NCBI GenBank assembly: GCA_020859985.1
Contig: JAJBVD010000027.1
Span: 15,252-79,251 of the forward strand
Direction of reading: 5' to 3'
Source of the DNA: Clostridiales bacterium
Lineage (GTDB): Bacteria; Bacillota; Clostridia; Lachnospirales; Lachnospiraceae
Length of the DNA stretch: 64,000 nt
Made by a program: the position numbers and the translations under genes. This document shows, piece after piece, positions 3,480 to 28,896 of this stretch (its first letter is position 1; every line of letters starts with the position of its first letter). A model generated the notes under the pieces. The model was not told the DNA's origin, did no database searches, and saw only the letters and a program-made list of their open reading frames with translations.

Positions 3480-3856
3480 ACCATCCGCCTTACAGTTCCC
3501 GTCTCAGCTCCTGTTAATTATAAACTATGTCAAAAACTTTTCCGTCTCATAACAACAACTCTCATTCATCTCCAAGGCTCTCAAAAGCCTTGAATTCAGC
3601 TAACTTCTCACAGCCATCTTACCACAGAGCCGCTGACAGGGCAACACGAAATCGTCATAAAAATTATGTAATTATTAAGTCTTTATCGGGAAACTGTAAT
3701 ATTTCTCCTTGTCTTGTAACATTTTTATTTTCCTTGACAATCCTCTTTTTTCTGTTAGACTGAACAGCGTGGCAGATAACACAGTTCCTATCCCACTTAC
3801 AGGAGCGCAGCTCAAATACAAGGCATAGAAAACCCGAGCGGTACACTCTGCCCGAT

Positions 3857-3899
3857 CCGTCTGTTCGAAACCATCCAGACGTAAAATAAAACTAAGGAG
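3857..3899 (+). promoter_or_regulatory. PreQ1-I riboswitch upstream of queT
   Basis: CGUCUG-UUCGAAACCAUC-CAGACG-UAAAAUAAAACUAAGGAG: 6-bp P1 stem, preQ1-I-like loop, and A-rich tail merging into the Shine-Dalgarno; start codon at 3910. Confidence 0.85.
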
Positions 3900-3909
3900 A
3901 GAATAAGAA

Positions 3910-4419
3910 ATGAAGAATCAAACACCCCAGTCACGGAGCGTTCTGTTCCTGACGCACGCGGCGCTCATTGCCGCACTCTACGTTGTGCTCACGTACATCG
4001 CGAATGCACTCGGTCTTGCAAATGGCAACATTCAGGTTCGCTTTTCCGAAGCACTCACCATCCTGCCATTTTTCACACCTGCCGCTATACCGGGGCTCTA
4101 CATCGGCTGCCTGCTTGCCAACATTCTGACTGGCTGTGCCCTGCCTGATATCATATTCGGGCCGGTCGCCACGCTGATCGGCGCGCTCGGCACCTATGCG
4201 CTGCGCCATCACAGTAAATGGCTCTCGCCAATCCCCCCTATCGTGGCAAATGCGATCGTTGTACCGCTTGTCCTGCTGTACGGCTACGGCATCCGGCCGC
4301 TGTGGTTTTCCTTTGTAACAGTGACTGCCGGCGAGGTTATATCCTGCGGCATCTTTGGCCTAATCCTGCTCGCCGCACTGTCCAAATACCGGACGCAGCT
4401 GTTCCCGGATCAGGTGTAA
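3910..4419 (+). CDS. queT: QueT family queuosine-precursor transporter
   Basis: 169-aa membrane protein with QueT-like sequence (ALYVVLTYIANALGLANGNIQVRFSEALTILPFFTPAAIPGLYIGCLLANI), preceded by a preQ1-I riboswitch. Confidence 0.9.
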   Translation: MKNQTPQSRSVLFLTHAALIAALYVVLTYIANALGLANGNIQVRFSEALTILPFFTPAAIPGLYIGCLLANILTGCALPDIIFGPVATLIGALGTYALRHHSKWLSPIPPIVANAIVVPLVLLYGYGIRPLWFSFVTVTAGEVISCGIFGLILLAALSKYRTQLFPDQV

Positions 4420-7536: not shown

Positions 7537-9708
7537 ATGAATTTTATCAATGACAACGGCGCACTCATTGCACGGCGGCTGGGAGAGACGCTGCGTATCG
7601 AGGCATGGGGGAAAGATTCTCTGCGGGTGCGCGCCACAATGTGCCCGGAGATTTTAGATCAGAACTGGGCGCTGACGGAGATTCCGCCTCAGGCTGAAGC
7701 AAAAGTGGAAATCTTCGCCCCCGGCGAATGGACCGGGATCGTCGATTCTGAAGCGAATCTGGGTGAAAAAGGCTACGCCGTGATCACAAATGGACGTGTG
7801 AAAGCCATCGTTAACTGGACGGGAGTGATTACTTATTACAAAGATGATGTCCTTTTTTTGCGCGAATACAGCCGCAATTACGACGGCACAATTTCCCGCG
7901 AAAGCCGCTGTCTGAAAATCGTCAGCCGTGAGTGGAAGGGCGTCATGGGCGGTGATTATTACAATCTGAACATGAAGTTTGAGAGCAATGAGGGGGAAAA
8001 GCTGTTCGGTATGGGACAATATCAGCAGCCCTGGCTCGACCATAAGGGGAGCGTGCTAGAGCTCGCGCAGCGGAATTCACAGATCTCTGTACCGTTCGCT
8101 GTTTCCTCGCTGGGGTACGGTTTCCTCTGGAACAATCCGGCCGTCGGCCGCGTGACTTTCGGCAAAAACTATACGGAATGGATTGCCTCCTCGACAAAGC
8201 AGATGGACTACTGGATCACAGTGGCAGACACACCGAAGGAAATCCTGGCTTCCTATACGGCAGTGACCGGGCACGCACCGATGTTTCCGGAAGACCGCAT
8301 GGGACTGTGGCAATGCAAGCTGCGCTACCGCACGCAGGCGGAGGTGCTAGAAGTCGCTCACAGATATCAAGAAGAAGGCATCCACATTGACCAGATTGTG
8401 ATTGATTTCTTCCACTGGACCGTACAGGGCGACTGGAAGTTTGATAAGACCTACTGGCCGGATCCGAAAGCCATGGTGGACGAGCTGCACTCGATGGGCA
8501 TCAAGGTCATCGTCTCTGTCTGGCCGTCCGTAGACCGTCGAAGTGAGAATTTCGAACCGATGTACGAGCAGGGGCTTCTGATGAAGACGGACCGCGGCGA
8601 ACCGCAGACCTACGATTATCAGGGTGACTGCGTGGAGATCGACCCGTTTAACCCGCGGACTGCCGAATACGTCTGGAATATCTGCAAAAAGAATTATTAT
8701 GACTACGGCATCGACGCGTTCTGGCTGGACAATTCCGAGCCGGATCTGGGCGTCTATGATTTCGACAACTACCGCTACTACGCGGGGCCGGCGCTCTCCT
8801 GCAGCAATATGTACCCGCAGATGTACAGCCGGATCTTCTACGATAATATGAGTAAACTATATGAGGAAAAATTGTCTTCCTGCTCTGACAGTGCGGCAGA
8901 CAGTTCCTGCGCCGAGACTGCGGCAGCTACTGTCCACACCGGAGAAAACACCGCGTGCCCGAAATCCTGCGCTAGGGAAGAATCTGCGTCTGACGCATGC
9001 AACGGCATCGTTAATCTCCTCCGCTGCGGCTGGGCCGGAAGCCAGAAATACGGCAACGTCATCTGGTCCGGCGACGTACCCAGCACATTCGAGGCGTTCC
9101 GCGATCAGCTGCAGGCCGGCCTGAACATGGGTCTCGCGGGCATCCCGTGGTGGACCACCGACATCGGCGGCTTCATGACCGACGATGTAAACGACCCGGA
9201 TTTCCGCCAGCTTCTGATCCGCTGGTATCAGTTCGCCGTCTACTCGGCAGTGCTGCGGATGCATGGCGACCGCGGTCCTTACGACATCCCGCCGCTCGAC
9301 GACCGTGACTGGGGCGGCGGCTATCTGCACACCGGCCAGCCGAACGAGCTGTGGAGCTACGGCGAGGAAAACTACCGCATCATGCGCAGCTATTACGATG
9401 TACGGATTTCCATGCACGACTACATCCGTGACCTCTACAGGGAAGCGCACGAGAACGGCTCCCCGCTGATCCGCACGATGTTCTACGAGTTCCCGAACGA
9501 TGCAAAATGCTGGGAGCTCACCGACCAGTACATGTTCGGCAGCAACTATCTGGTTGCTCCAATCCTGTATCTGAACCAGTTTTCCCGCAGCGTCTATCTG
9601 CCGGAAGGCAGCTGGAAGCTGACAAGCACCGGAGAAGTATTTGATGGCGGTCAGACCGTGACGGTCGATGCGCCGATCGAGTATATGCCGGTGTTTGAAC
9701 GACTGTAA
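7537..9708 (+). CDS. Glycoside hydrolase family 31 (alpha-xylosidase/alpha-glucosidase-like)
   Basis: GH31 motifs 'FWLDNSEPD', 'IVIDFFHW', 'WWTTDIGGF', 'LRMHGDRGPYD'; start at MNFINDNGALIARRLG. Confidence 0.92.
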   Translation: MNFINDNGALIARRLGETLRIEAWGKDSLRVRATMCPEILDQNWALTEIPPQAEAKVEIFAPGEWTGIVDSEANLGEKGYAVITNGRVKAIVNWTGVITYYKDDVLFLREYSRNYDGTISRESRCLKIVSREWKGVMGGDYYNLNMKFESNEGEKLFGMGQYQQPWLDHKGSVLELAQRNSQISVPFAVSSLGYGFLWNNPAVGRVTFGKNYTEWIASSTKQMDYWITVADTPKEILASYTAVTGHAPMFPEDRMGLWQCKLRYRTQAEVLEVAHRYQEEGIHIDQIVIDFFHWTVQGDWKFDKTYWPDPKAMVDELHSMGIKVIVSVWPSVDRRSENFEPMYEQGLLMKTDRGEPQTYDYQGDCVEIDPFNPRTAEYVWNICKKNYYDYGIDAFWLDNSEPDLGVYDFDNYRYYAGPALSCSNMYPQMYSRIFYDNMSKLYEEKLSSCSDSAADSSCAETAAATVHTGENTACPKSCAREESASDACNGIVNLLRCGWAGSQKYGNVIWSGDVPSTFEAFRDQLQAGLNMGLAGIPWWTTDIGGFMTDDVNDPDFRQLLIRWYQFAVYSAVLRMHGDRGPYDIPPLDDRDWGGGYLHTGQPNELWSYGEENYRIMRSYYDVRISMHDYIRDLYREAHENGSPLIRTMFYEFPNDAKCWELTDQYMFGSNYLVAPILYLNQFSRSVYLPEGSWKLTSTGEVFDGGQTVTVDAPIEYMPVFERL

Positions 9709-10063: not shown

Positions 10064-11959
10064 TCAGGCAAATGATAAATGTCCATCTGAAGATGTTTCA
10101 TCGTAAATTTCATTCAGCACTAACTCAAGACTATTCTTCATCTGTTCCGTAGTAGGACTATATACCACATTTCTCTTCGCCACTTCATTTTCAATTATTG
10201 GTGTTAGCAATATCCTTGCAAACTTCCTACGATTTTGGCTTGCAAACATATCTTTTAGTTTTTTGCCATCTAATTCGTCCCGAAGTTTGTCCACGACTTT
10301 TTCTGCTTCCTTATTATTCAAAAGATATTCCGAAGCCATATCTGTAAACACATTTTGGATAATACCAACCATTGCTTCTGCATCGTCCTCTATAAAAGCA
10401 CTGGTCACTTTATTCGCTACAGTACCTGCTGACGCGCCACCGACAATAGACCCCAAAATGCCACCAACAACTGTTCCAATTCCAGGCAAAAGCATCGACC
10501 CTGCAGAAGCTCCGGCTATCCAGCCTCCTGTACCGCCTCCTACAGTAGCAACTGTTTCTGTCATATTCTTGAACATCTGTTTTCCTGAAATTCTTTCCCT
10601 AAAAAGATTTGCTATATCTAAAGATGATAAAACTACAATAGATACACCGGCTGTAATCGTATTCCCCCTAAGAAGCTTAGCCGCACTTTTCATGGCAGCA
10701 GCGCCATATATTGGCTTGGTTCCGGAACGAAACGCATTAATCAACACTGCTGAAGCTTTCGGTCCCATCATAGTAACAATCGCTTCAGAGCTTCCAACTA
10801 ACGCGCTATTAAGACCTGCCTTGGAAAGCTGTGCTGCTATTATCGAAGTAACAAACGCTGTTCCTCCAACTTTAATGCCGGAATAAGTTGCAGTTCTCAA
10901 TGCATCGTCAAATTCCTTACCATCCCATACTTCTGTCGCCAAAGTAAGCAATGCAGTCACGCCAAAAGCTGATGTAGCTATAATAGTTCCATTTACAGCG
11001 TCATAAGTTAAAGACTCTACAGTTCCAGCTTTCGCGATATTTTTCGCCTGCGTGTAAGTAAAATGTCCTTTCCGAACAATATTCTTAGCTTCTTCCGGAT
11101 CCGTAACACCATTCACCTGACCATTACGAATTTTTTCTTCCATTGCCCTGATTGCTTCATCATATTTATCTGATGGAACTTCGATCTGCATAGGTTTTCC
11201 GTCTATAGTGTATCTAAATGCGCCTTTACCATCATCTTCGAAACATTCATTAATGCATCGTGAACCAGTCGCACAGTATTTTGATTGAATTGCTATACCA
11301 TCAACTATCCTGTCGGCTCCATTCTTTGCATTGTCATCCCCAACAATTTTCGCATCGTGCCCGGTAAATTTGTCATACAAATTATTCGCCCTTTCCGCAG
11401 CAAAACCATGCCCCTGACTCGCGTGAAACTTTTCTTCTTCATATTGATTATTTACCGTCTCAAATGTCCCAATACCAAGCCCGCCTGAAATCGCACCATT
11501 GCTTTTCTTCTTTTTATTTTTTTCAAACTTGTCATTACCTGCATTAGTGCAATCAAAACCTGCCATAATATCCAGAAATTCTTTCAATGGCTTATTATTA
11601 AGAAATGTGCTGTTGAACACTCTTTTCTCACCGTCGTACTGAATAATTTCCAAATCTCCGCCACTGCATAGTCTGGTTTCCTTTATATCATCGTACCAAA
11701 GCTTTTTAGGTTTTTCTAATGTTTCCAAATAATACATCTTGTCATCCGTAAATATATAGCCTGATTTTCCATTAGAAAAAACAGAAGTGTCATAAAAACC
11801 AATTATAGTAGTGCGATCCATGCCTAATGCAAAAGTTGTTAACGCTTTATCAATTATTTTACTGGGGATATTTCCTTTAATATAATATCCTGAGCATGTA
11901 GCTATCCTGCTAAGATATTTTTTCATAATCTCAATTTTTTTCTCATGGACTGTGCCCAT
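10064..11959 (-). CDS. 631-aa protein: N-terminal PH-like region, central conserved 'NGADRIVDGIAIQSKY' module, hydrophobic/glycine-zipper C-terminal half; last gene of the Ter operon
   Basis: Long intact ORF; 'GYIFTDDKMYYLETLEKPKKLWYDDI', 'AERANNLYDKFTGHDAKIVGDDNAKNGADRIVDGIAIQSKYCATGSRC', 'GGGTGGWIAGASAGSMLLPGIGTVVGGILGSIVGGASAG'. Confidence 0.8.
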   Translation of the reverse strand: MGTVHEKKIEIMKKYLSRIATCSGYYIKGNIPSKIIDKALTTFALGMDRTTIIGFYDTSVFSNGKSGYIFTDDKMYYLETLEKPKKLWYDDIKETRLCSGGDLEIIQYDGEKRVFNSTFLNNKPLKEFLDIMAGFDCTNAGNDKFEKNKKKKSNGAISGGLGIGTFETVNNQYEEEKFHASQGHGFAAERANNLYDKFTGHDAKIVGDDNAKNGADRIVDGIAIQSKYCATGSRCINECFEDDGKGAFRYTIDGKPMQIEVPSDKYDEAIRAMEEKIRNGQVNGVTDPEEAKNIVRKGHFTYTQAKNIAKAGTVESLTYDAVNGTIIATSAFGVTALLTLATEVWDGKEFDDALRTATYSGIKVGGTAFVTSIIAAQLSKAGLNSALVGSSEAIVTMMGPKASAVLINAFRSGTKPIYGAAAMKSAAKLLRGNTITAGVSIVVLSSLDIANLFRERISGKQMFKNMTETVATVGGGTGGWIAGASAGSMLLPGIGTVVGGILGSIVGGASAGTVANKVTSAFIEDDAEAMVGIIQNVFTDMASEYLLNNKEAEKVVDKLRDELDGKKLKDMFASQNRRKFARILLTPIIENEVAKRNVVYSPTTEQMKNSLELVLNEIYDETSSDGHLSFA

Positions 11960-13419: not shown

Positions 13420-14586
13420 TTATTCCTGGCAAACCAAACAAAAAAAATCACATTCAGTCTGCCGTAACACCTCCTTTAATCTTTCGCAGGCACAGGTTAT
13501 AGATATATGGGCATCTGTGATTACCATGACATAATCATATTTAATCAAATTATACACATATGTTATCCTTTCCGAATCATACATACTTACCGCATGACAA
13601 CGGCTGAACAAAGGGTATCCATTAATATCACTGGTTCTAATTGGACTCCTTGTCGTCGCATGAAACATAACGTTTATTTCGGGAAAATGACTATGTATTT
13701 CTTCAGCAATCTTCAAAGGTAAAAACATAAACTCTTCTGTCCCTAAAACAAGTACATTCTTCACTTTTTCAGAAAAATCAACTTTCGAGAGGACTTTCTC
13801 TATATAATTATCCACGTCATTTATTAGAGCACTTCTTTTTTGCAGGAATCTGAAATTATAGTTACTAACATTCACAGTCTCTATTTCAGGAAAAAAATGT
13901 GTCGTATAATATTCAGTAGTACTATCGGATTTTCTTGAATTTAGAAGATTATTTTTTTCGAATAAAGAATTAAATTCATCAATTCGATCTAAACCGTAGT
14001 TATTTGGCATTCTGCATACATATAAACATTCGATCCGGTATTCTCTTTCAAATTGTGAAATACGTTCATCAGTCATACTGTTCAAAATAGATATAATACT
14101 AAATTTCCCTTTAAATTCTGAGAATCTATCCTTTATTTCACCTATAAGATGAAATATTGTATTTCCAGTAGTCACTTCATCATCAACAAACAAAATCCTG
14201 TCAACATTTCCAATGATCTGCTCATATCCATTAATTATTAATGATTGTTCTGTAGCATGAGAATGATCTTCCGTAAAATTCAAATACTCCGCCATTGCAT
14301 ACTTTTCCCTTGTAGTCTGGCTACAATATTGTACTGAAGATGAATAATAGGCAATCCCATTTCCCACAGCAGTTGCTGTTTCAGCAAAAGCAATCAAAAG
14401 AATCCTATCTTCCGAATATTTTTCATCTATCATATCAGCCATATATCTGAAAAGGCATAGCGGCTTTTCTGGCGCAACAGGAATATGTTTTCCCTGTAAA
14501 GGATTTACATATAAAAATGGACGTTTATTATTATTATCTCTACAAGCAACCCGTACAAGTTCATCCATTGAATATTGATTTTTCAT
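13420..14586 (-). CDS. Phosphoribosyltransferase (PRTase_2) with TRSP domain, Ter-associated
   Basis: PRPP-binding 'ILFVDDEVTTGNTIFHLIGEI', and 'MFHATTRSPIRTSDINGYPLFSRC' (TRSP signature). Confidence 0.82.
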   Translation of the reverse strand: MKNQYSMDELVRVACRDNNNKRPFLYVNPLQGKHIPVAPEKPLCLFRYMADMIDEKYSEDRILLIAFAETATAVGNGIAYYSSSVQYCSQTTREKYAMAEYLNFTEDHSHATEQSLIINGYEQIIGNVDRILFVDDEVTTGNTIFHLIGEIKDRFSEFKGKFSIISILNSMTDERISQFEREYRIECLYVCRMPNNYGLDRIDEFNSLFEKNNLLNSRKSDSTTEYYTTHFFPEIETVNVSNYNFRFLQKRSALINDVDNYIEKVLSKVDFSEKVKNVLVLGTEEFMFLPLKIAEEIHSHFPEINVMFHATTRSPIRTSDINGYPLFSRCHAVSMYDSERITYVYNLIKYDYVMVITDAHISITCACERLKEVLRQTECDFFCLVCQE

Positions 14587-14590
14587 ATTT

Positions 14591-15562
14591 TTAGATCACC
14601 CCATATATTTCTGCCAATATCATCACCTTTTTTGCCCACCGAGTATGAGTTTTCACTTCATTCATACGCTCTCCATTTGAGCTTTTTCCAACTAAAAGTT
14701 CCGAATCATTCCAGCTGATAATCGTCCTCGCATCTATATAATCTTTTATTGAGACTTTCAATGCTTCATTCACAATACCAATCTGCTTTGGATGAATAAC
14801 TGTCTTTCCTATAAATCCATTCAATCTATCCAATTTTAATTCACGTCTAAGCCCTGCTTCCCATTCATTATTCTCCCCGAAAAAAAATTCCCACACCGGT
14901 GCTGATATGACATACTCATTCAAAAAAAACGTCAAAATATCGCTCATAAGAAGAGCAACAGGTAAAATGTCATAAATTGTTTCATCACAATGTCTTCTTA
15001 CAGAAAAATGATTGCAAAAATCATTACCGCCAACTCTTACATTTAGCACGTAATCCCTGATAGAATCTATTTTTTCTTTCAGATAACACAGGGCAGCTTT
15101 TCTTGTTTTGTAATCTGCTATATCTTTGCTTTCCAGAATTGGCATACAATATATTTTTTTCACTGACCTTTTATTGATTTCCTCAATACAAAGATTGTAT
15201 TCGGAAGAAGTTTCAGTAGAATACTTAGGAAGCACAAATCCTGTTAAAACATCGGAATATGCCTCAGTTTTTTGATATATCCTATACATCTGTTTTGCAT
15301 TTCTTACTCGTATAAATATATACGGCATAAAAAAATCATGATTTCCCAATTGTTCTTGCAATGTGGCCAGAGTTTTTATAATCTGTTGTTCCGCAGCTTC
15401 TATCATATAATCTGCAATCGTATCTTCACAGCAAAGAGCTAATGAGAAATTATTTCCAATTTTACCTTTTATAATGTCCTGAGCTATTTTACTGTTTGTC
15501 CCTGGCGTATACAGCAACGGTCCTATTCCATATTTCAATTTCAATTCTTCATTTATTATCAA
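14591..15562 (-). CDS. HpcH/HpaI aldolase / citrate lyase (CitE-like) family protein, Ter-associated
   Basis: 'LLYTPGTNSKIAQDIIKGKIGNNFSLALCCEDTI', 'IFIRVRNAKQMYRIYQ', 'NGFIGKTVIHPKQIGIVNEALKVS'. Confidence 0.82.
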   Translation of the reverse strand: MIINEELKLKYGIGPLLYTPGTNSKIAQDIIKGKIGNNFSLALCCEDTIADYMIEAAEQQIIKTLATLQEQLGNHDFFMPYIFIRVRNAKQMYRIYQKTEAYSDVLTGFVLPKYSTETSSEYNLCIEEINKRSVKKIYCMPILESKDIADYKTRKAALCYLKEKIDSIRDYVLNVRVGGNDFCNHFSVRRHCDETIYDILPVALLMSDILTFFLNEYVISAPVWEFFFGENNEWEAGLRRELKLDRLNGFIGKTVIHPKQIGIVNEALKVSIKDYIDARTIISWNDSELLVGKSSNGERMNEVKTHTRWAKKVMILAEIYGVI

Positions 15563-15568
15563 CTTTTT

Positions 15569-16369
15569 TTATCTTCCCCGTTCTTTTATTTCATATAGCG
15601 TGTTATATATTGTATTCGAAAACATTTTTTCCGAAGCATAAACCATGTTTTTGTTCTGACATATGATTCTCAATTTTTCCAAAGCAATCCCGTAATCTAC
15701 CATATCAAACATAGAAATATCCTGAAAGCTATCACCTGCAGCAACAGTAATATTCATATCATTTAATTCCTTATACCGCTTTATGGCAAGCCCTTTATTT
15801 ATCGATTTGCATATAACATAAACCTTCCTTTCATCTGAATAGATATCTACTGAGTCCTGATTTAAAATGACACTCAGGTAATTATGTATATTCTCAACTT
15901 GCATATTCAATAAAGGGCTACTATGCGCATCTTTATCTTCTCCCTTCCCTACAACTGCATAAAGATAGAAAGGTTCTACATAGTGAATTTTTTCAACCGG
16001 AAGAAAAGCCGTCAGGATATCATATGCTTTTGCTATTTCTGGCTGCTGATATTCAGAAATAGCCATCGTCTTTTCTTTCCATTTTGAATCTTCTATCCCA
16101 TGATCCAAAAAAATTCCCCCATTGCAAACAAAAGCTCTGTCACATCCCAACTCTTTCAATAGAAAAATCCGCCGAAACTGTTCTGCTGTTCTGGACGTTA
16201 CCGGAACAATTGTAAAAAATCTATCTTCTTTCAAAAACAAATATAGAGCCTCCGGCATATAGCTTTGTTCTTTCCCATTCAATCGTTCTGCCAAAACCAT
16301 ATCAGAGCCAGTTGTTCTTCTGTGCGAATAAATCAAAGTATTATCCAGATCTGTAAAAAACACATTCAT
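15569..16369 (-). CDS. HAD family hydrolase (Ter-associated)
   Basis: 'MNVFFTDLDNTLIYSHRR' motif I, 'VPVTSRTAEQFRRI', 'VAAGDSFQDISMFDMVDYGIAL'. Confidence 0.85.
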   Translation of the reverse strand: MNVFFTDLDNTLIYSHRRTTGSDMVLAERLNGKEQSYMPEALYLFLKEDRFFTIVPVTSRTAEQFRRIFLLKELGCDRAFVCNGGIFLDHGIEDSKWKEKTMAISEYQQPEIAKAYDILTAFLPVEKIHYVEPFYLYAVVGKGEDKDAHSSPLLNMQVENIHNYLSVILNQDSVDIYSDERKVYVICKSINKGLAIKRYKELNDMNITVAAGDSFQDISMFDMVDYGIALEKLRIICQNKNMVYASEKMFSNTIYNTLYEIKERGR

Positions 16370-16395: not shown

Positions 16396-17394
16396 TCATA
16401 CAATTAGTGGAAGCTCAACATGAGAAATATATTTCTCCTCATAGTTATTTTTCCAGCCTTTACTCATTCCCAACAATTGGTTTACAGCCAGATTAGGTAA
16501 ATTTACACCGCTGGCAAGGCAGGACATATGCACGCCTCCTGACATTCTTGTATTCACCTCAAGGAAATATGGAACCCCATGTAAATATTTAAACTGTATA
16601 TTACAGGGATGATCCAGCCCAACTTTGTTATAAAAGTCTCTGCAAAATTGTAATATTTCGGGTATATATCTTATTCTTTCAACTCTTGAAAAATCTTTTA
16701 CTCTAGGAAGCATAACAATTCCATCTTCAGTTTTCAGACAATCAACACTAACTTCTTCGTCAGGCAAAAATGGCATCACCATTATCGGAGAAAATATTTC
16801 TTTCTCCGATAATGCTGCAATCACATCGTTCAGGTTCATTCTGGAATTTTGTTTCCTTTGTAATGCGGAATAGCCTTTTCTTGTGTTATCAATTAATCGA
16901 TAGCTTTTACCACCTTCGTCCTGCAGAAATTTGAAACAAACCTGTTCCCCGGATGATCTTATTTTGTCATAAGCTTTTAAAAAATCATTCAATGTGGTAA
17001 CCACATAATGTTCTGGGACAAACCCTATTCCTTTTTCTTTGAATAGTTTATATGCCTGCTCTTTATCATTCAGAACAGAAACTATTCCAAAATCATCAGC
17101 CATTACGCGGATTCCATATTCTTCAAATCGAGCCTTTTGTTTACTAATTATAAGCATCCCTCTGCGGGGCAAAAAAGCATCAATTTTATGTTCCTTACAA
17201 AATGAAAAGCAATAATCCGCATAATCTTCTTCATTCAGTATCGGTTCCGTATACCATTCATCGCAAACTGTTTTATAAACTGCATGTGCATTGTCATTGC
17301 TTCCCACAATCCAAAATTCAGATTCCGATTCTTTAATGAGATTTATGATATTATATGCCGTACTAAACCAGTGATTTAGCCAAATCTTCTTCAT
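16396..17394 (-). CDS. ATP-grasp domain protein (Ter-associated)
   Basis: 'FLPRRGMLIISKQKARFEEYGIRVMADD', 'CFKFLQDEGGKSYRLID', 'MPFLPDEEVSVDCL', 'FLEVNTRMSGGVHMS'. Confidence 0.85.
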   Translation of the reverse strand: MKKIWLNHWFSTAYNIINLIKESESEFWIVGSNDNAHAVYKTVCDEWYTEPILNEEDYADYCFSFCKEHKIDAFLPRRGMLIISKQKARFEEYGIRVMADDFGIVSVLNDKEQAYKLFKEKGIGFVPEHYVVTTLNDFLKAYDKIRSSGEQVCFKFLQDEGGKSYRLIDNTRKGYSALQRKQNSRMNLNDVIAALSEKEIFSPIMVMPFLPDEEVSVDCLKTEDGIVMLPRVKDFSRVERIRYIPEILQFCRDFYNKVGLDHPCNIQFKYLHGVPYFLEVNTRMSGGVHMSCLASGVNLPNLAVNQLLGMSKGWKNNYEEKYISHVELPLIV

Positions 17395-17424: not shown

Positions 17425-20061
17425 TTATTTCTTAGAAACAATTATTTTCCTTAAGAAGTCTACCGGAATAATAAGCAAGGCCAATAAAATGGACACTACC
17501 AATGCTTTTTCGTTAAGCATCGTCGTATTGAACACCTTTCCACCAAATTCAATAATAACGGTCTGCAAAATAAAGATGGAACCCATAACTAATATAAAAT
17601 TCCTATTCTCCCCAATGTTTTCAAACAAATTCAGTTTCTCAGACCGTGTGTTTAAGCTATTAAAAATAATGGAATAAATAAAAAACGCAAACATAAATGT
17701 CTTTTTATATAATTCCGGATTCGCGCAATTAACAGGAGTAACAAAAGCTGTTATCCCACCAATATTTTCCAATATCAATATGGCGCCTAAAGTAATAAAC
17801 ACAGAGCTTGTTCCTATTGCCGATTTAATGTACCCCGTCAGAATATTATCGGTTCTCAGGGCCGGCTTGTCCTCCATATATCTTTCCAGAATTGGTTCAC
17901 CACCAAATGCCATTGCCGCTAAAGTATCCATAATGAGATTAATCCATAAAATTTGAACAATGGAAAACGGTTCTGTCCAGCCTAAAATTGGAGCAATAAT
18001 ATTCATCAAAAGTGTGCTGATATTAACTGTTAGTTGAAAAATCAAAAATTTTCCGACAGACTTGGCCATGGTGCGACTGTTAAGCACACAGTTCTTTATT
18101 GATCTCAGACTGTTATTTAAAATAATAACGTCTCCCGCTTCCTGAGCCACAGCTGTTCCATCTCCCATTGCAAAACCAATATCTGCCTGCTTCAATGCCG
18201 GTGCATCGTTAACGCCATCTCCAGTCATTCCACAAACCTGATCCATTTGCTGTGAGACCTCCACCAGTCTTTTTTTATCAAGAGGTTTCGCTCTGCTGAC
18301 AACCCGAAGACGAGGAAGCGCCTTTTTCAGTTCTTCATCTGACATTGCATCAAGAAGCTCGTGCGTTAACACAATATCATTCTTCTCGTTCTTTAAAATT
18401 CCTGCTTCTTTTGCAATTGCTACTGCAGTTTCTTCTGCGTCTCCTGTTACCATTACAACTTGTATCCCTGCTTTGTTTAATTTCTCTACAGTCTCTACAG
18501 CATCGGTGCGTACATTATCCCGTAAACACAATACAGCAAGGAGTATCGTCCTGGATGATTCTATTTTAACAACAGATAGCAATTTCATTGTCCTTTTTGC
18601 TTCAGTAGTCATTTGAGTTTCTACTTTTTGGCGATTATTAGCAGTAAATTCATATATTTCCCCTTCGGGCGATGCAAAATGTGTAATTTGATCAATTATA
18701 TTTTCTGTCGCGCCTTTCCAATATATTACGCCATTTTTCAATTGTACAGTTGCACACTTTTTTTCAGAATCAAAACCACTGATACTCTCTACTTGCCCTG
18801 AATCATTTTTTGAATCAACGTAACCATTATTCAAAGCATACGACAGCAGCGCTCGATCCATATTGTTGCTCCCGATTGCTTTTCCTTCTGAAACTTTTGC
18901 AAGATTGTTAAGCGTTATTGCTTCTATAAACTCTTCATTCCGAATAGCGTCAACGACTTTGCCATCACCGGTAATAAACTCAACTACAGAAAGTGAGCCT
19001 TGAGTTATAGTTCCAGTTTTATCACTGAACAGAATATTCATGTAGGCAGAATCAGAAAATGCAGCTTTATGACTTACCAGAATATTTTCCTTATAAAGAG
19101 ATTCTGTATTCATTGACTGCACCAAACTGTTCATCATTGGAAGTCCTTCCGGTACCGCCATAATCACAATAGATGCCATAAGCATTACTGCCTCTGCCAA
19201 TAGGAGCAAAACAAACACAATTGTTATACTTTCTGATGTGCGAAACAGTGTTAATATTACATGAAGAATGCCGGCTATTGCTGCTGCAGAAACTCCTAAT
19301 TTACCGATTCCTCCAGCTACAGCTTCCAATTTCAGGCTCGATGTATCTTTTCTTTCCTCGTTTTCGTCTTCGGTTAATGATTTGTTGATTTTACCAAGTT
19401 CTGAAGAATCTCCAATTACAGTAGCAACCATATAGCCTTCTCCAGAAGTTACGACAGAGCCCATAAACACCTTAGAACGTGAAGCATAATCCGTGTTCTC
19501 CGCTTCTGATAAATCTTTAGCAGGAATTTTAGTTTCATCCCTGGATTCTCCGTTAAGTGCCGCTTGTGATACTTTTATAGTTCCATCAAATAATATTCCA
19601 TCAACCGGCACTTTGTCTCCTGCCTGAATTAAAACAGTATCCCCTTTCACAATATCACTGGTAAGAATATTATACAGTTTCCCATTTCTTATCACTTTTG
19701 CGTAGGTTTTATTATATTCCTCCTGTAATGCCTCACTTCTTGAAGTGTTTCTATATTCTGATAATGTACTAAACCCTGTCGCCAAAGCTATCGCCAGAAG
19801 AATACTTATAATTTCAACAATATCATTTTCTCCTGCTAGTGCAGGTATAAACATGCCTAATACTGCAAGCGCAACTTTTAACAATAGAGCCGCACACAAG
19901 ACCTTAATCCAGATATCGTTAAATGCATCCAGAAACATACTCCAAAGAGATTCCTGCTCTTTCTTTGCAAGCATATTCGTTCCATACTTTGATTCGCTTT
20001 CTTTTATTTGCTGATCAGAAAGGCCTTTCACCAAAAGGTCTTTTTCTATCTTGTTTTCCAT
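17425..20061 (-). CDS. Calcium-translocating P-type ATPase, PMCA-like
   Basis: 'LFSDKTGTITQGSL' phosphorylation motif, 'VMVTGDAEETAVAIAKEAGI', 'MTGDGVNDAPALKQADIGFAMGDGTAVAQEAGDVIILNN'. Confidence 0.93.
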   Translation of the reverse strand: MENKIEKDLLVKGLSDQQIKESESKYGTNMLAKKEQESLWSMFLDAFNDIWIKVLCAALLLKVALAVLGMFIPALAGENDIVEIISILLAIALATGFSTLSEYRNTSRSEALQEEYNKTYAKVIRNGKLYNILTSDIVKGDTVLIQAGDKVPVDGILFDGTIKVSQAALNGESRDETKIPAKDLSEAENTDYASRSKVFMGSVVTSGEGYMVATVIGDSSELGKINKSLTEDENEERKDTSSLKLEAVAGGIGKLGVSAAAIAGILHVILTLFRTSESITIVFVLLLLAEAVMLMASIVIMAVPEGLPMMNSLVQSMNTESLYKENILVSHKAAFSDSAYMNILFSDKTGTITQGSLSVVEFITGDGKVVDAIRNEEFIEAITLNNLAKVSEGKAIGSNNMDRALLSYALNNGYVDSKNDSGQVESISGFDSEKKCATVQLKNGVIYWKGATENIIDQITHFASPEGEIYEFTANNRQKVETQMTTEAKRTMKLLSVVKIESSRTILLAVLCLRDNVRTDAVETVEKLNKAGIQVVMVTGDAEETAVAIAKEAGILKNEKNDIVLTHELLDAMSDEELKKALPRLRVVSRAKPLDKKRLVEVSQQMDQVCGMTGDGVNDAPALKQADIGFAMGDGTAVAQEAGDVIILNNSLRSIKNCVLNSRTMAKSVGKFLIFQLTVNISTLLMNIIAPILGWTEPFSIVQILWINLIMDTLAAMAFGGEPILERYMEDKPALRTDNILTGYIKSAIGTSSVFITLGAILILENIGGITAFVTPVNCANPELYKKTFMFAFFIYSIIFNSLNTRSEKLNLFENIGENRNFILVMGSIFILQTVIIEFGGKVFNTTMLNEKALVVSILLALLIIPVDFLRKIIVSKK

Positions 20062-20200
20062 ATTACCTGTTTCTCCTCCCACAGTCCTTTTATATACTCC
20101 ATCAATATATTCGGAATTAAAATATTGAAAGAGAGGAGCCAGCTTCTAAACTCCTCTCCCTGTCACAATAAAGAAACGCAACGTTATCTTAAATAGATTT

Positions 20201-20803
20201 TTATATGTATCTACTGCAGGTTTGACTGATCCCCGGGTCCTTGGTCCCCTGTCCGATTGCACTGAACTTCCACTGTCCATTATATCTGTACACTTCACCA
20301 AATATCATAGCTGTCATTCCGGAATAATTTTCTGTCAGGTTGTATTTACAGATTTCCATATTGTTCCTGGCATCTACAAGACGGATAAAAGCATTCTGTA
20401 TAAGGCCAAAATGCTGGTGCCGCTGAACAGCCTGATAAATATTAACCACAATAACAATTTTATCATATACTGCAGGAACTCTTGCCAAATCAATTATAAT
20501 CTGCTCGTCATCGCCATCTCCTGCTCCAGTCAGGTTATCTCCCTGATGTACAACGGTTCCCGATTTGTGTTTCAGATTTCCAAAATAAACCAAATCAGCC
20601 TTATCTGTAAATTTTCCGTTTTTGAGCAGTATTGCTGATGCATCACAATCGATATCCTGAGTTCCTATACCAAACAATCCGCCCAGAAGACCGCCTGAAG
20701 ATCGTTTTACTTCATCCCATCCAAGTCCAACTACTATTTTGCCCAGACCAGCATTATCTTTAGAAAGACTGACTTTTTGACCTTTTTGTAAACTAATTGA
20801 CAT
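20201..20803 (-). CDS. TerD family protein
   Basis: 'SLQKGQKVSLSKDNAGLGKIVVGLGWD', 'FGNLKHKSGTVVHQGDNLTGAGDGDDEQIIIDLARVPAVYDKIVIVVNIYQA'. Confidence 0.95.
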   Translation of the reverse strand: MSISLQKGQKVSLSKDNAGLGKIVVGLGWDEVKRSSGGLLGGLFGIGTQDIDCDASAILLKNGKFTDKADLVYFGNLKHKSGTVVHQGDNLTGAGDGDDEQIIIDLARVPAVYDKIVIVVNIYQAVQRHQHFGLIQNAFIRLVDARNNMEICKYNLTENYSGMTAMIFGEVYRYNGQWKFSAIGQGTKDPGISQTCSRYI

Positions 20804-20864
20804 ATTTTTGTCTCCCGTTTTCTCATTGAAAAAATATAATGATAAGCACATTTAATTTGAATAT

Positions 20865-21446
20865 TTACGCAACCTGAATCCCATAATGGCCACAGAGAGC
20901 CGCCAAACCGCCCTGGAAACCACTTCCAATTGCGTTAAATTTCCATTCTCCATCATGTTTATACAGTTCTCCAACTACCACAGCTGTCTCAATGGAAAAA
21001 TCTTCTCCCAAATCATAGTGAATCAGTTCAGTACCATTTGAATCATCCACCAATCTGATATAAGCATTAGAAACCTGTCCGAAATTCTGATGTCTGGATT
21101 CCGCTTCATAGATAGTAACAGTAAACGCAATCTTTTCGATATTTGCAGGAACTTTTGACAGGTCAATCTGAATCTGTTCATCATCGCCCTCACCTTCACC
21201 GGTCAGGTTATCGCCCATATGATTTACCGCTCCACTTGTATGGGAAAGATTTCCATAAAAAACGAACTCTCTGTCTGTCGGGCATTTTCCATCCGCACCT
21301 AACAGAAACGCTGCAGCATCAAGGTCAAAATCAGCACCAGAGTCAAATGCATTTACATCCCATCCCAGGCCAACCAGAATACTTTTCAAACCCGGATTCC
21401 TTTTTGTTAAATCTACTTTTTGTCCTTTAGATAAATTAATTGGCAT
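20865..21446 (-). CDS. TerD family protein
   Basis: '[53 protein letters not shown]', '[23 protein letters not shown]'. Confidence 0.96.
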
Positions 21447-21519
21447 TGTATTTACCTCCTTAAAATGTGTATTGATATTTTTTACAGTAGCTGCTCTGTA
21501 TACCAACAGCTACTGCTAT

Positions 21520-22674
21520 TTACTTTTTCGGTGCAGGCATATGATACATCTTATTAAAATCAGCTTTTATAGCCTCCAGTCTGGCCGCATCTTCTACACG
21601 CTTCTTTCTCGCATCTTCCTGAATACGTTTTGTCTCCTCTATACCACTCGTAATTGTGCGCCAGGTTGTTTCCAACGTCTCTACCTGAACCGAACTTCCT
21701 GATACAAGTCTTGCAGTAGATTTTGATACTTCTACAGAATTCTGTGCATTCTTTATCAATAATTCATTCGTCTTTTTATCCAGTGCTGCCATTGATTCTG
21801 CCTGAATTTTCTGTCGTTTAAGCAGGATTGCCTGAGCCAGTGCCTGTTTAAAAACAGGAAGAGTAACAATGAAGGCAGAATTAATTTTTCGCACAAGATT
21901 GTAATTACTGAATTCCATAGTCTTGATCATCGGAATCGACTGCATCGCAACATTTTCAGCAGTTCGAAGGTCTTGTGTACGCTGTTCCATCATATCTAAT
22001 GCCTGATTCAAACTGGTGATCTCAAACTGGATAGACTGATCTCCGGTAGAATCCATTTCCTGCTGTTTTTGAACAATATACGCCTCTATTTCTTTACAAG
22101 CCTGTTCTCCTGCTAATATATATTTCACTAATTCATGATAGAAATTTACATTTGCTTCAAACATTGTATTTAATTTTCTGTTCGATTGTTTGATTTCAGA
22201 TTCGTAACCTTTAAGCTGAACATAAATCTTATCAACTTCATCTCCCATCGTATGATATTTATCCAGAATCTTGTCCAGCTGTTTTTTCATATTTCCGAAA
22301 AGCTTCCCGAAAAATCCAGGGTTTTCTTTAATTTCCTCAATATCAAACTTGTCCATGATTTTTGCGAGAGCATCCAACATTTCACTTGTCTCATTAAGCT
22401 GAGACATATTCATGCTGTTTAAAACTACATCTGACGCTTTGGATATCTCCTCAGCCACGTCCGCTCCAAAATTGACAATGGATTCAAGATTATACACTTC
22501 TATTGTATTTACAATCTTGTCTACTTCCTCTGAATTAACCAGCTTCGTGTTCATTTCTTCTCTGTCAGCCACAATATCATACTGCTTTACTTCTTCGATT
22601 TCATTTTTCACAGCTGGTGATCCCATCGGTGTGACCGTCGCAGCAGTTTCTGGTTTACTAAAATTAAGTCCCAT
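21520..22674 (-). CDS. Toxic anion resistance protein TelA family
   Basis: TelA-like all-alpha protein: 'KKQLDKILDKYHTMGDEVDKIYVQLKGYESEIKQSNRKLNTMFEANVNFYHELVKYILAGEQACKEIE'. Confidence 0.93.
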   Translation of the reverse strand: MGLNFSKPETAATVTPMGSPAVKNEIEEVKQYDIVADREEMNTKLVNSEEVDKIVNTIEVYNLESIVNFGADVAEEISKASDVVLNSMNMSQLNETSEMLDALAKIMDKFDIEEIKENPGFFGKLFGNMKKQLDKILDKYHTMGDEVDKIYVQLKGYESEIKQSNRKLNTMFEANVNFYHELVKYILAGEQACKEIEAYIVQKQQEMDSTGDQSIQFEITSLNQALDMMEQRTQDLRTAENVAMQSIPMIKTMEFSNYNLVRKINSAFIVTLPVFKQALAQAILLKRQKIQAESMAALDKKTNELLIKNAQNSVEVSKSTARLVSGSSVQVETLETTWRTITSGIEETKRIQEDARKKRVEDAARLEAIKADFNKMYHMPAPKK

Positions 22675-22679
22675 TTTGT

Positions 22680-24956
22680 TTACCCTCTCTTAAAAAATTT
22701 TTCACGCCACGTATGACGCGTATTAACTGGTTTAAAACTGCTCAATTCAGGAACCTGCATATCGTATTTGTATTCGCCAACCTGATGTTCTTCCATCATA
22801 TTTTTATTAAAATATTTTTCAACGCTTTGATAACCTGTTGGCACAAAAAACAAAACATCAAAGCCTATCAGATTTAAAAATGTACACACAATAGTATCTT
22901 CCAGCGAAATTACCTTTTCAGTAACATTAATATAAATCAGTTTCGGATTTTTCTTTGTAAAATCAAACTTTTGTATCAATCTTACAATCTCTTTTGGCAA
23001 ATTCAAAACCTGTGCTATTACAGTGTATTCGGTCCCATTTTCTCCAATTCCCTTAACTGCCTTCCGTCTTATCAGTTCCCCCAACCTGTCAAGCATAAAA
23101 TCCTGCATTTCTTCCCGTAGAATTCCATATGGATATTTGGGGTGATTCTTTATTTCACCGGTCTTCAGCTTACCATTTTTATAAAATTCTGCCACATAAG
23201 GCTTCATTGGATTCATATCCGTCGAAGTAATATATGGAACGCTTTTGATTACCAGTGTATCTTCCGTGATTAACTCCTTAACTGTATCCCAATAGGAAAC
23301 AATTAAACCATCTTTCACTCCGGAAACTTTTGCGAAAATTACAGGAATATTTACAATATCATCCGTCACGCTGAAACTCGGTCGATATTTCAGTTCCTGA
23401 TCCCATAAAATACGAATCTCCTCATACATAGTCTGCAAACATATCACATTTGCTTTTCTATACTGTTGATTTCTATAGATGCCAGTATCATGATACAATA
23501 AATTATCCAAATCTCTTTCTGCATGGTAAGCAGTTGTACCAATCCTTGTCTGTGAGCTGTCCTCCGGATATTCCGTTATCTCCATGTTTTCAGGATAATT
23601 AATCTCATACAGCAGTTTGTCGTCAAGGCAGCATTTGAGATTTCTATTCGGGCATAAAATCACTACATCCACCGGCGTACGTGCCAGAAAGCGCATAAAC
23701 ATTGCCTCATTGTCATCCTTGCAGCCACCCAAGTATATAAAGCAGCTAATATCCCGCATCTTCCAATTTTTAAATAATACTGCTGAATATCGTTTTAACC
23801 AGCAAAGTAAATATACAGCTTTGTTTATTAACCTGTGTAAATTCTGTTCTCCTTTCTGTGATTCAAAAAGTACAGTATCCACAAATGCTTTCCGGATAAT
23901 ACGCTGCAGTTGAATATTAAAGGAACTTGAAATATTCCCAGCCAAATCCATAATCAGCTGATCTGCCTTTTCATAGCTTCCTTTTCGTCGAATTTCCGTT
24001 ATTTCCTCCGGGTTGGGTTTAGTTATGTTATGGTTCACAATTACAATTTTTCTATCTGACCTTTTTAATTCCTGCTGCATTTGATGCAGTTCCTGCGCAT
24101 AAGTATTCCTGTCTTCAACTCCATTGATTCTCAGAAAACAATTATAGAAAAATCTTTCATCACTGCCGCGCAAAGCAGGCTCTTTCTTTATATCTTCAAT
24201 TCCCTTTCCCGTCATCCAGGCATTCGTACAATTAGCAATCGAAGGCATACTTCCATATAATCGTTCTCGATCCGCATCCTGCTTCATTTCTTCCCGCAGC
24301 ATTTTAATACAATACTCTTTCGGAAATGGTTTCATGTCTGGAATTGACAGATTATATGAAAGAGCAGAATCTCGATCTGCTTTAAGGTAAGCATCATCTC
24401 CATTGTATTGCAGCAAGACTACATCGCATCCAGCATGTGAGAGAATAGAAATCAGTATCAGTTCATAATTGCTGATATTTCCCTCATAAAGTATTTTTGG
24501 AATACAGTTCCCTCCCAATAAGCTTACGATTCTCTCAAATTTATAATACAGCCAGCACATGAACTTAATGTAAGCATTTTTCAGCATTGCATCTGTTTTC
24601 CCACTCTTCCTCATGGAATCCAACGCAGTATAAAGAGCTTCAGATATATTTTCCGTTTGAGATTCATTCATTCGCGGCAGCCATTTTTTCAGCTTTTCTG
24701 TAATGAATTGTTTATTCATCTGGAAGTCAAAACCCATTATTTCACTATAATAAGCCAGATTATTCTCTGTGGGATTAGAGATTCTCCCCTCAATCACAAC
24801 ACCTTTTTTTCTCGTTTCGTTATAATATGTTTTTATAAAAGCAGCTATTTCATCGGAATATCCATTGATCCTGTAAAAATATACCCCCTTTTCCCTCCGT
24901 AAATTAAGTTCTTTAAAATAATCATTCAGGTTTTGTATCTTTTTGTGTTCTAACAT
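22680..24956 (-). CDS. YceG-like protein associated with TerD/TelA operons
   Basis: Position next to telA and terD, as in the Bacillus yceC-yceH arrangement; 'CFIYLGGCKDDNEAMFMRFLARTPVDVVILCPN', 'DRLGELIRRKAVKGIGENGTEYTVIAQVLNLPKEIVRLIQKFDFTKKNPKLIYI'. Confidence 0.78.
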   Translation of the reverse strand: MLEHKKIQNLNDYFKELNLRREKGVYFYRINGYSDEIAAFIKTYYNETRKKGVVIEGRISNPTENNLAYYSEIMGFDFQMNKQFITEKLKKWLPRMNESQTENISEALYTALDSMRKSGKTDAMLKNAYIKFMCWLYYKFERIVSLLGGNCIPKILYEGNISNYELILISILSHAGCDVVLLQYNGDDAYLKADRDSALSYNLSIPDMKPFPKEYCIKMLREEMKQDADRERLYGSMPSIANCTNAWMTGKGIEDIKKEPALRGSDERFFYNCFLRINGVEDRNTYAQELHQMQQELKRSDRKIVIVNHNITKPNPEEITEIRRKGSYEKADQLIMDLAGNISSSFNIQLQRIIRKAFVDTVLFESQKGEQNLHRLINKAVYLLCWLKRYSAVLFKNWKMRDISCFIYLGGCKDDNEAMFMRFLARTPVDVVILCPNRNLKCCLDDKLLYEINYPENMEITEYPEDSSQTRIGTTAYHAERDLDNLLYHDTGIYRNQQYRKANVICLQTMYEEIRILWDQELKYRPSFSVTDDIVNIPVIFAKVSGVKDGLIVSYWDTVKELITEDTLVIKSVPYITSTDMNPMKPYVAEFYKNGKLKTGEIKNHPKYPYGILREEMQDFMLDRLGELIRRKAVKGIGENGTEYTVIAQVLNLPKEIVRLIQKFDFTKKNPKLIYINVTEKVISLEDTIVCTFLNLIGFDVLFFVPTGYQSVEKYFNKNMMEEHQVGEYKYDMQVPELSSFKPVNTRHTWREKFFKRG

Positions 24957-25012: not shown

Positions 25013-25768
25013 TCATTCAGCATCTGCTACAGGTGGTACACCATGTTTTCTGTTCACAGGCAACAATTGAAAAAGATAGTATGCAAGAACAATAATTGAA
25101 ATCCATTGAGATGTCGAAACCCCAAACAAGGATCCTCTAACCTCGTCTCCTCTGAAAAACTCAATAGCAAAACGAAACGCCGCATAAGAGACCAGATAAA
25201 CACGTAACAGATCATTTGCCCAATTGTGATTCTCAATAAAGAGAAGTACAGCAAACATTAAAAATTCAAAAGAGGATTCGAACAATTGTACAGGAACCCT
25301 GTTGATTTCCAATATACCAAACAATGTAATTGTCTGATTCAATTCAATCCCGTAACAGCAGCCGGCAAGGAAACATCCAATACGCCCAAATCCGTGAAAC
25401 AATGGAAATGCCGGCGTTGCAAGGCGAAACACACGTTTCCTCAAATCCAAATCTTTTCTCGTATAGAAAAGAAGAACAAATACAACACCAAACAATCCGC
25501 CGTAAAACACAAAGCCGCTCTCCGGAATCAGTAGTAATAAATTTATAATCGAAAAATTACTAATCAGCCACGGTATCTGTGTTAAGGCAAACAGTATTTT
25601 ACTTCCTGCGTAACAGCCAGCCACACATAACGCCAGCATTTTAATAAATTCCGAAAACTGAATTTCATATTTTCTCAGGCGAAAATATATAAATATCATG
25701 GCAGCAAATCCGCCAATAAACGCCATTACAGAATACGATGAAAGAACGATGTAAATGTATGGATACAT
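25013..25768 (-). CDS. Prolipoprotein diacylglyceryl transferase (Lgt)-like membrane protein
   Basis: Polytopic protein with 'GFVFYGGLFG', 'FHGFGRIGCFLAGCCYG', 'RVPVQLFESSFEFLMF', 'RFAIEFFRGDEVRG'. Confidence 0.88.
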   Translation of the reverse strand: MYPYIYIVLSSYSVMAFIGGFAAMIFIYFRLRKYEIQFSEFIKMLALCVAGCYAGSKILFALTQIPWLISNFSIINLLLLIPESGFVFYGGLFGVVFVLLFYTRKDLDLRKRVFRLATPAFPLFHGFGRIGCFLAGCCYGIELNQTITLFGILEINRVPVQLFESSFEFLMFAVLLFIENHNWANDLLRVYLVSYAAFRFAIEFFRGDEVRGSLFGVSTSQWISIIVLAYYLFQLLPVNRKHGVPPVADAE

Positions 25769-25782
25769 ACGGCTGCATCTCC

Positions 25783-26325
25783 TTAATCAATGCCCAGGAA
25801 GTATTCAATATCGTCAAGCTCCAGTCGTATTATGTCTCCCATACCAAAACACCCCACACAGCCTCCGACGCACCCTGCAAGATTTCCCGAATCATTAGTT
25901 CCACAGGTAACCCCTGCCGAACCCCCTTCCGTAACTTTTCCAGAACTGATGCATCCTGCATAGCAGGATTTTTGTTCTCTGCAGCTGGTGTAATACTCCG
26001 TATCACATGCTACTATATTGAAGCTTTCATCAATTTCCTCATCAGAGTCCGACGAGCTGCAGTAAGACAAAATTTTACAGGATTGTGGCCAAAGACAGCT
26101 GTTACATCCTTTTCCCGAATTTAAGCATCCCCCTATACCCGGAATAGAGATTCCCCAAGATTTATAGCCAGAGCCAGATTCGCTTCCGCACTTGAGAGTT
26201 TCGCAGGAAGAACCGCCACATCCGCTCACACAAAGTAACGCAAAACAGAAAATGCAAAATATTAATAATGTAAACAGTTGTTCTCCTCTGGAACTCTTAT
26301 CCAGATTCTTTAGTTTCTTTAACAT
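25783..26325 (-). CDS. Cysteine-rich (about 16 Cys) predicted lipoprotein; first gene of the Ter operon
   Basis: N-terminal hydrophobic segment ending in lipobox 'LLCVSGC', then GxxC/CxxC-rich sequence (CETLKCG, GCLNSGKGCNSCLWPQSC, CREQKSCYAGC, AGCVGGCVGC). Confidence 0.75.
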   Translation of the reverse strand: MLKKLKNLDKSSRGEQLFTLLIFCIFCFALLCVSGCGGSSCETLKCGSESGSGYKSWGISIPGIGGCLNSGKGCNSCLWPQSCKILSYCSSSDSDEEIDESFNIVACDTEYYTSCREQKSCYAGCISSGKVTEGGSAGVTCGTNDSGNLAGCVGGCVGCFGMGDIIRLELDDIEYFLGID

Positions 26326-27806: not shown

Positions 27807-28896
27807 TCATCCCAGCAGGGATGCCAACTCGTATAATACACACGTAAGTGCGAGTCCGGCCAGAAATATGAGAAAATCATAAAGAAAGATGCCGATTACC
27901 TTTGCGAAAACCCGGGGGCTTCTGGTGATTGGCAGAAAGGACTGTATTCCCAGATAGTCTCCTGTAAAGAATATGATGCCAAAAGCTGTCAGAAAAAGTC
28001 CGATGGTTATTATCGAATCATCCACCTGATTCACGATTTCCGTTCCCAGAAAAGCAATCATCAAAGCATACACCAGCGTCGCTACAGCCATGTTGAGCGG
28101 ATTTCCGCTGCGAAAACCAGGCGGCAGAAAGCGCCGGCGGGAAGAAGTTCCCTGTGCCGCAGTTCTGCTCTCTCTGTTTATACCGGAGATCTGTTCCGGC
28201 AGATCCGATTTTTCTTTTGAACATAAGCGCATAGCCTGCAGCTCCGCTACAAGATCGTCTATGTTTCGAAAATGATCAGAAAAATCCTGTTTCATACATT
28301 TTGTGATAAAAGTGGCAAGATGTTCCTGTACGCAAAGTTCTTTTGCAGTGAGTTTCTGCAAAGAAGACGTTTGTCCAGCGACCGCAAAGGTTCCGCCGGT
28401 CAGAAGTGTATTCAGAAGCGCTCCGATGTCGTGGATATCCTTTTGAATTCCGGAATACGTTCCGGATGTATCTGTTTTGGAGATATCTGTTACGGAGATA
28501 TCTGTTTCGGACTGCGGCGGCAGCATCAGCTCCGCATTCTGAAAACCGACAAGTTTCAGCACATGATCCGGCGAAAGAATCAGGTTGGACGGACGGATAT
28601 TCCCGTGGATGACTACAGGAATCCTGTGATGAAGATTCTGATAGAGTGTCCCCCGCGAAATATTCTTCTATCACAATCAGCGTTTCGCCATCTTCTGCCA
28701 GTTCACAGATGTGCGGAGTGCCCGGAACCGGATGTTCTTTCAGCGTCCGGAAGACTCCGGCATTGTGGGTCGAAAGCCTTCTTTCCGCAAAAATGGCTCC
28801 TGTTTCTATGTGCTGCACAAGCTGGAAACCGTGCTGAGCAGCGACTGTTTTGAGAGGTCGGTAATAAGACAGAGCCAATTCCTCATTCAATTCCAT
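27807..28896 (-). pseudogene. Decayed serine/threonine kinase-like gene (deletion plus frameshift), paralog of the 28995-30050 gene
   Basis: ORF 28276..28896 N-terminus matches the paralog ('HGFQLVQHIETGAIFAERRLSTHNAGVFRTLKEHPVPGTPHICELAEDGETLIVIEEYFAGDTL'); the rest is in another frame ('LYQNLHHRIPVVIHGNIRPSNLILSPDHVLKLVGFQNAELML...'). Confidence 0.8.

Follow-up and report, generated by a model that had tools for sequence, protein, structure and literature searches.

Lgt is regarded as acting generally, on every protein with a lipobox. Here we describe, in a 64,000-nucleotide stretch of DNA from the genome of a gut Lachnospiraceae bacterium (assembly GCA_020859985.1, contig JAJBVD010000027.1, positions 15,252 to 79,251 of the forward strand; hereafter the window), two adjacent genes that encode a cysteine-rich lipoprotein precursor (P0001) and an accessory Lgt-family enzyme (P0002). 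Accessory or plasmid-borne second Lgts have been reported from B. cereus group plasmids, from Streptomyces and from M. smegmatis, where MSMEG_5408 carries the replacement N146C (PMC13251419). Like P0002 they are second copies besides a housekeeping one, with N146C reported among them, but in the available part of that paper they occur with conjugation lipoproteins or with no named partner, and none is described there as being constantly paired with a DUF4190-like or Cys-rich protein.

The best reference for the enzyme is E. coli Lgt (PF01790; PDB 5azb/5azc), which P0002 resembles in family match, fold and the core residues R143, E202, R239, E243 and R246. P0002 differs from it by the replacements N146C, N149A and E151C and by a histidine at the position of L139, and also in being extra to another lgt and in having a fixed partner gene. 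For the partner, the comparison is with DUF4190 (PF13828) small membrane proteins, which occupy the same slot beside related Lgts (the H clade, below) and have a cysteine at the outer end of their last transmembrane segment; in contrast to P0001 they are multi-spanning, have few cysteines and no N-terminal lipobox, and no sequence relation between the two was shown. Metallothionein-like proteins share the high cysteine content, and one other Cys-rich partner (from genome G457) is CxxC-rich, whereas P0001 itself is predicted to be secreted and lipid-anchored, lacks a metallothionein family match and is not enriched in CxxC. Ter stress-response operons (PMC7824862) comprise the same set of YceG_bac, TelA, TerD, ATPgrasp_Ter, HAD, C-C lyase and PRTase_2/TRSP genes as found beside the pair, but the pair is only an occasional neighbour of such operons. 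In the open-licence literature we found no paper joining DUF4190 with a diacylglyceryl transferase and no description of a Cys-rich/Lgt or DUF4190/Lgt pairing, although an earlier description elsewhere is possible; TerD is linked with a diacylglyceryl transferase in one paper there, a proteomics study of B. cereus. The habit of Clostridia to keep a spare Lgt beside one small Cys-bearing membrane protein is apparently undescribed.

A cysteine-rich lipoprotein precursor and its neighbouring Lgt

P0001 (180 aa; 25783..26325, minus strand) begins with a basic n-region followed by a hydrophobic stretch and C-V-S-G-C36, which by reading has the features of a bacterial lipoprotein signal peptide. The lipobox V-S-G-C (residues 33-36; 26218..26229, minus strand) is retained as (V/I/L)(S/T)GC in 6/6 close members of the family. 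There are 19 cysteines in all, 16 counted from C36 onward (15 after C36), in agreement with the initial annotation, which had described an N-terminal lipobox and about 16 cysteines from the lipobox cysteine. The number of CxxC motifs is not above that in shuffled sequences. Internal lipobox-like cysteines (IVAC, LAGC and others) are more frequent than expected (4 versus 0.45, p 0.001), a signal that is weak in homologues and was picked post hoc, and that bears only on the idea of internal lipid anchors considered below. No Pfam or NCBIfam family matches P0001, and the best hit of a PDB search with its profile had an E-value of 0.5. A second suggestion of that annotation, a modified peptide, has no support when taken as one of the ribosomally synthesised and post-translationally modified kind: no enzyme of such a pathway was recognised among the scanned neighbours, and P0001 starts with a lipoprotein signal.

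The gene for P0002 (251 aa; 25013..25768, minus strand; signature HGFGRIGCFLAGCCYG) follows after a 14-nt gap (25769..25782). Both genes are preceded by purine-rich Shine-Dalgarno-like sequences, GGTGAGGAG for P0001 and AAGGAGATG for P0002, the latter spanning the gap and also covering the end of the P0001 reading frame. Comparison of the P0001 gene with a 71% identical homologue (L003) revealed 33/28/95 differences at the three codon positions, with a nonsynonymous divergence (dN, NG86) of 0.19 and a synonymous divergence (dS) of 3.7, which is saturated; for the P0002 gene and its counterpart in the same locus dN was 0.18 and dS 2.2. Strong coding constraint acts on both genes.

P0002 matches the PF01790 profile with 112.9 bits (curated cut-off 24.9; 2e-32), confirming the earlier call of an Lgt-like gene 14 nt downstream with the variant signature GRIGCFLAGCCYG. 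Its AlphaFold model (predicted local distance difference test score, pLDDT, 75) has a single PDB match under E 0.001, E. coli Lgt (5azb, template modelling score 0.60), to which the sequence itself aligns at 9e-15. Through this alignment E. coli numbering was carried to P0002: the catalytic-core residues R129, E164, R199, E203 and R206 correspond to R143, E202, R239, E243 and R246, and all five are invariant across alignment A5, including a decayed remnant in genome G512. E. coli N146 and E151 are replaced by C132 and C137, so that these two residues of the standard signature motif are not retained, with N149A and the histidine at the L139 position as further changes.

This signature is no special mark of the enzyme, contrary to what had been supposed. 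The form GRxGCFxxGCCYG is common among Lachnospiraceae and in other Clostridia, and PMC13251419 reports distant Lgts in which N146 and E151 are replaced by C or C/D. In G223, G514, G354, G359, G502 and G508 a Q-preceded form (QGFGR..) is the sole match to PF01790, and the only copy of G888 (L150, QMFGR) has a basal position in the H clade of the tree. Among these seven genomes (G508, G514, G223, G354, G502, G359 and G888; loci L139-L141, L143, L144, L148 and L150) the N146C/E151C enzyme reads Q..GRxGCFxAGCCYG. Because such a signature is found in the sole PF01790 match of seven genomes that are 81-99% complete (absence of a second lgt in drafts being no proof), it can probably accompany a working housekeeping Lgt, which weighs against N146 being indispensable.

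The pair is conserved in genomes that have another lgt

The window genome has a separate housekeeping lgt (G000:C52:19349-20122; PF01790 1e-69, 235 bits against 113 for P0002) with the ordinary signature GRWGNFFNREAFG; P0002 is therefore an accessory copy. Each of the six other genomes with the pair (G005, G032, G106, G457, G246, G512) likewise has at least one further lgt. The genomes compared are mostly drafts, many of them probably metagenome-assembled.

Homologues of P0001 and P0002 lie side by side in five further intact loci (L003, L008, L007, L011, L025). The P0001 relatives come from L003 (the same as G032), G005:C3 (40% identical; L004/L008), G106 (L007/L012), G005:C48 (L011/L014) and a human faecal scaffold, MT839723.1 (L025), and each is encoded directly upstream of an H-type Lgt. 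Counting the window, the genes are adjacent in six intact loci and in the decayed G512 copy, in which a Cys-rich N-terminus runs into the Lgt. At two sister loci, looser and rather dissimilar Cys-rich partners precede the Lgts of G457 (a 73-aa lipoprotein with 14 cysteines and lipobox TTGC) and G246 (180 aa, 14 cysteines, a transmembrane segment and the sequence SSDCIRCTNC). Thus the proposals that the Cys-rich reading frame would be conserved and constrained, that another lgt would serve as the housekeeping copy, and that a second Lgt is kept as a pair with a Cys-rich lipid-anchored protein were all borne out. The P0001 family is nevertheless rare, occurring in 3/47 genomes of the genus and in few of 397 genomes of the family; searches of IMG/VR contigs returned no P0001 relative and one distant Lgt, and plasmids yielded no P0001 relative. 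Weak matches at L009, L010, L021 and L022 proved to be unrelated open frames. An in-frame TGA in G512 had raised the idea of a selenoprotein, which was rejected: it belongs to the decayed gene and reflects no Cys-to-Sec change.

A clade of accessory Lgts with membrane partners

In a tree of 74 Lgts, P0002 falls inside a clade of 46 (support 100/97), nearly all of which have H before xFGR (the H clade), with 28 sequences outside. Partners were counted when encoded on the same strand no more than 200 nt away, DUF4190-like proteins being found among mechanical reading frames with a small profile built here. Within the H clade 27/46 enzymes have a DUF4190-like partner and 9/46 a Cys-rich one (together 36/46), while a partner was found beside 0/28 of the rows outside it (rows from L122 on were scanned separately). 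Two members, L083 and L087, have Q instead of H, yet lie within the clade and have a partner. The association was also seen in 40 held-out loci, outside those from which the idea was formed: a partner lies beside 16/21 H-type but only 1/19 Q-type Lgts (p 4.7e-6, a value that overstates independence, as there is kinship among the loci). A phylum-wide search returned very few H-type Lgts, and no paired loci among the loci inspected outside Clostridia.

Because all nine Cys-paired enzymes group together (99/93) within the H clade, the simplest history would be a single partner switch, from DUF4190-like to Cys-rich, with the DUF4190-like pairing seemingly the ancestral form. DUF4190-like neighbours of H-clade Lgts are found across Clostridia, among L026, L036-L039, L044, L051, L056, L063, L065, L068-L075, L078-L090 and L202-L240 (not every number).

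The DUF4190-like partners share a feature at the end of their last transmembrane segment. In the same 30 genomes, it ends with CxxC in 14/15 DUF4190-like proteins beside an Lgt versus 1/16 elsewhere (Fisher 8.6e-7), and the first cysteine almost always follows A, S or T, which in most cases is itself preceded by a hydrophobic residue. Among held-out tails a small residue precedes the cysteine in 14/17. This end should, as a rule of thumb, face the outside, where Lgt acts, because the preceding loop is basic (positive-inside rule), and the cysteine would match both the position and the chemistry on which Lgt would act.

Interpretation and alternative explanations

We tentatively favour, at a little under even chances, a reading in which P0002 belongs to a Clostridia-wide clade of accessory diacylglyceryl transferases and is dedicated to a cysteine at the transmembrane end of its neighbour, the partner here being a lipid-anchored, probably thiol- or metal-binding protein controlled with the Ter genes. 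The argument for activity is family membership, fold and retained core residues, and that for dedication is the partner association. H-clade Lgts would be retained beside one Cys-bearing membrane partner each. P0002 would transfer diacylglyceryl to C36 of P0001, the cysteine at the outer end of the transmembrane segment; LspA would then remove the signal peptide, leaving an ordinary N-terminal lipid anchor. Mature P0001 would sit on the outer face of the membrane as a lipid-anchored domain with 15 further cysteines outside the cell, which may bind metal or act as a thiol/disulfide buffer or sensor. The copies in the window and in G005:C3, carried with a Ter operon, would be produced as part of the Ter response to stress. 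If this is true, dedicated lipidation systems exist, in which every extra Lgt of a clade is tied to a partner of its own; it would give concrete possible roles to the Cys-substituted Lgt signature and to the uncharacterised DUF4190 proteins of gut Clostridia, and a second lgt in genomes of this type should not be taken as mere redundancy.

Several observations weigh against this proposal. The housekeeping Lgt could by itself lipidate P0001. In E. coli, N146 is described as absolutely required by PMC13251419, which also presumes MSMEG_5408 (N146C) to be of low activity, and E151A/Q variants were inactive in one study (PMC4728403). No partner was detected for 10/46 H-clade rows, the G246 partner has SSDC in place of a lipobox, so that this motif is not constant, and held-out DUF4190 tails contain CxxC in only 9/17, a looser motif than first seen. 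The AlphaFold model of P0001 is poor (pLDDT 46), with no metal site or fold predictable.

The replaced signature residues have also to be weighed as a sign of a different function, in which the Lgt-like protein has little catalytic activity and serves as a chaperone, tether or redox partner, exchanging disulfides or metal with its neighbour through C132/C137/C138, while the housekeeping Lgt lipidates that neighbour. Consistent with such a structural or regulatory pairing, cysteines occur in both partners where two membrane proteins would meet, it is N146 and E151 that have become cysteines, and neither the G246 partner nor the DUF4190 proteins are classical lipoproteins. However, the same signature occurs in the sole-copy Lgts of seven genomes and the five transfer residues are kept in intact members, and we consider this explanation unlikely. 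We are similarly doubtful that P0002 is a second Lgt of general function, with a wide range of substrates or with substrates at times of stress, that lies beside a lipoprotein gene through gene clustering, without a dedicated relation, since partner type is clade-specific (36/46 versus 0/28, and 16/21 versus 1/19 in held-out loci) and DUF4190 partners differ from ordinary lipoproteins. An improbable variant is that H-clade Lgts lipidate cysteines that never become N-terminal, namely those closing the last transmembrane segment of DUF4190-like proteins on its outer side and perhaps several in P0001; the result would be integral membrane proteins of a distinct class, anchored through internal diacylglyceryl-Cys residues that signal peptidase II leaves unexposed.

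The initial annotation had itself placed the pair within the Ter system, as an integral module whose Cys-rich protein is a metal- or oxidant-sensing outer component. The pair is indeed co-directional with the Ter genes, and a pattern scan found no strong minus-strand terminator between them, only one weak match inside the Lgt reading frame (promoter matches were at chance level). Ter genes accompany three copies (the window, G005:C3 and the decayed G512 copy, which lies among Ter genes), and in a 194-genome sample the Ter C-C lyase is present in 3/4 genomes with an intact pair versus 20/194 overall. In contrast, intact copies lack adjacent Ter genes at L012, L014 and L025, as do looser versions at L058 and L059, and at least six relatives (G014, G042, G046, G049, G075, G100) have the Ter C-C lyase gene without a Cys-rich match. 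Most Ter operons lack the pair, which is an occasional neighbour and no constant member of them, and a Ter-specific device seems very unlikely.

Genomic neighbourhood

The Ter operon that had been noted downstream of the pair is real and contains the full biosynthetic set, all on the minus strand. Its first canonical gene, 56 nt after the Lgt stop codon, encodes a YceG_bac protein (22680..24956), followed by TelA (21520..22674), a first TerD-like copy judged from its translation alone (20865..21506) and a second TerD (20201..20851). A P-type ATPase of the Ca (PMCA) type (17425..20082), the ATP-grasp protein of Ter operons (ATPgrasp_Ter, 16396..17394), a HAD hydrolase (15569..16369), the C-C_Bond_Lyase of the Ter biosynthetic branch (14591..15562) and a PRTase_2 + TRSP protein (13420..14586) complete the set; except for the first TerD-like copy, assignments are from domain scans. 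Downstream of the last Ter gene lies a gene for a 631-aa protein without a Pfam match (10064-11959, minus strand).

Other copies of the pair have different surroundings. Large proteins with a glycine-rich motif of the RGRWxGGGFG type adjoin it at L012:12609-14456, L014:9782-13612, L025:2827-5307 and L058:5425-7326; no Pfam family covers the motif region, and these four loci lack adjacent Ter genes. The G005:C3 copy lies among genes for an FtsK/SpoIIIE-type ATPase and WXG100/EspC-like proteins (L004:6-3014, 3017-3997, 9309-9689), which suggests a type VII secretion neighbourhood beside its Ter genes. In G512, where the decayed pair lies among Ter genes, many near-identical repeats (reading as FQSTLPRGER / ISIHAPARGAT; L060:13900-18000) downstream of these genes are likely a CRISPR array. 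Also within the window, a serine/threonine protein kinase gene (27807-28896, minus strand) is apparently split into two frames that overlap and lack the kinase core, and an intact-looking relative is found at L003:6744-8090.
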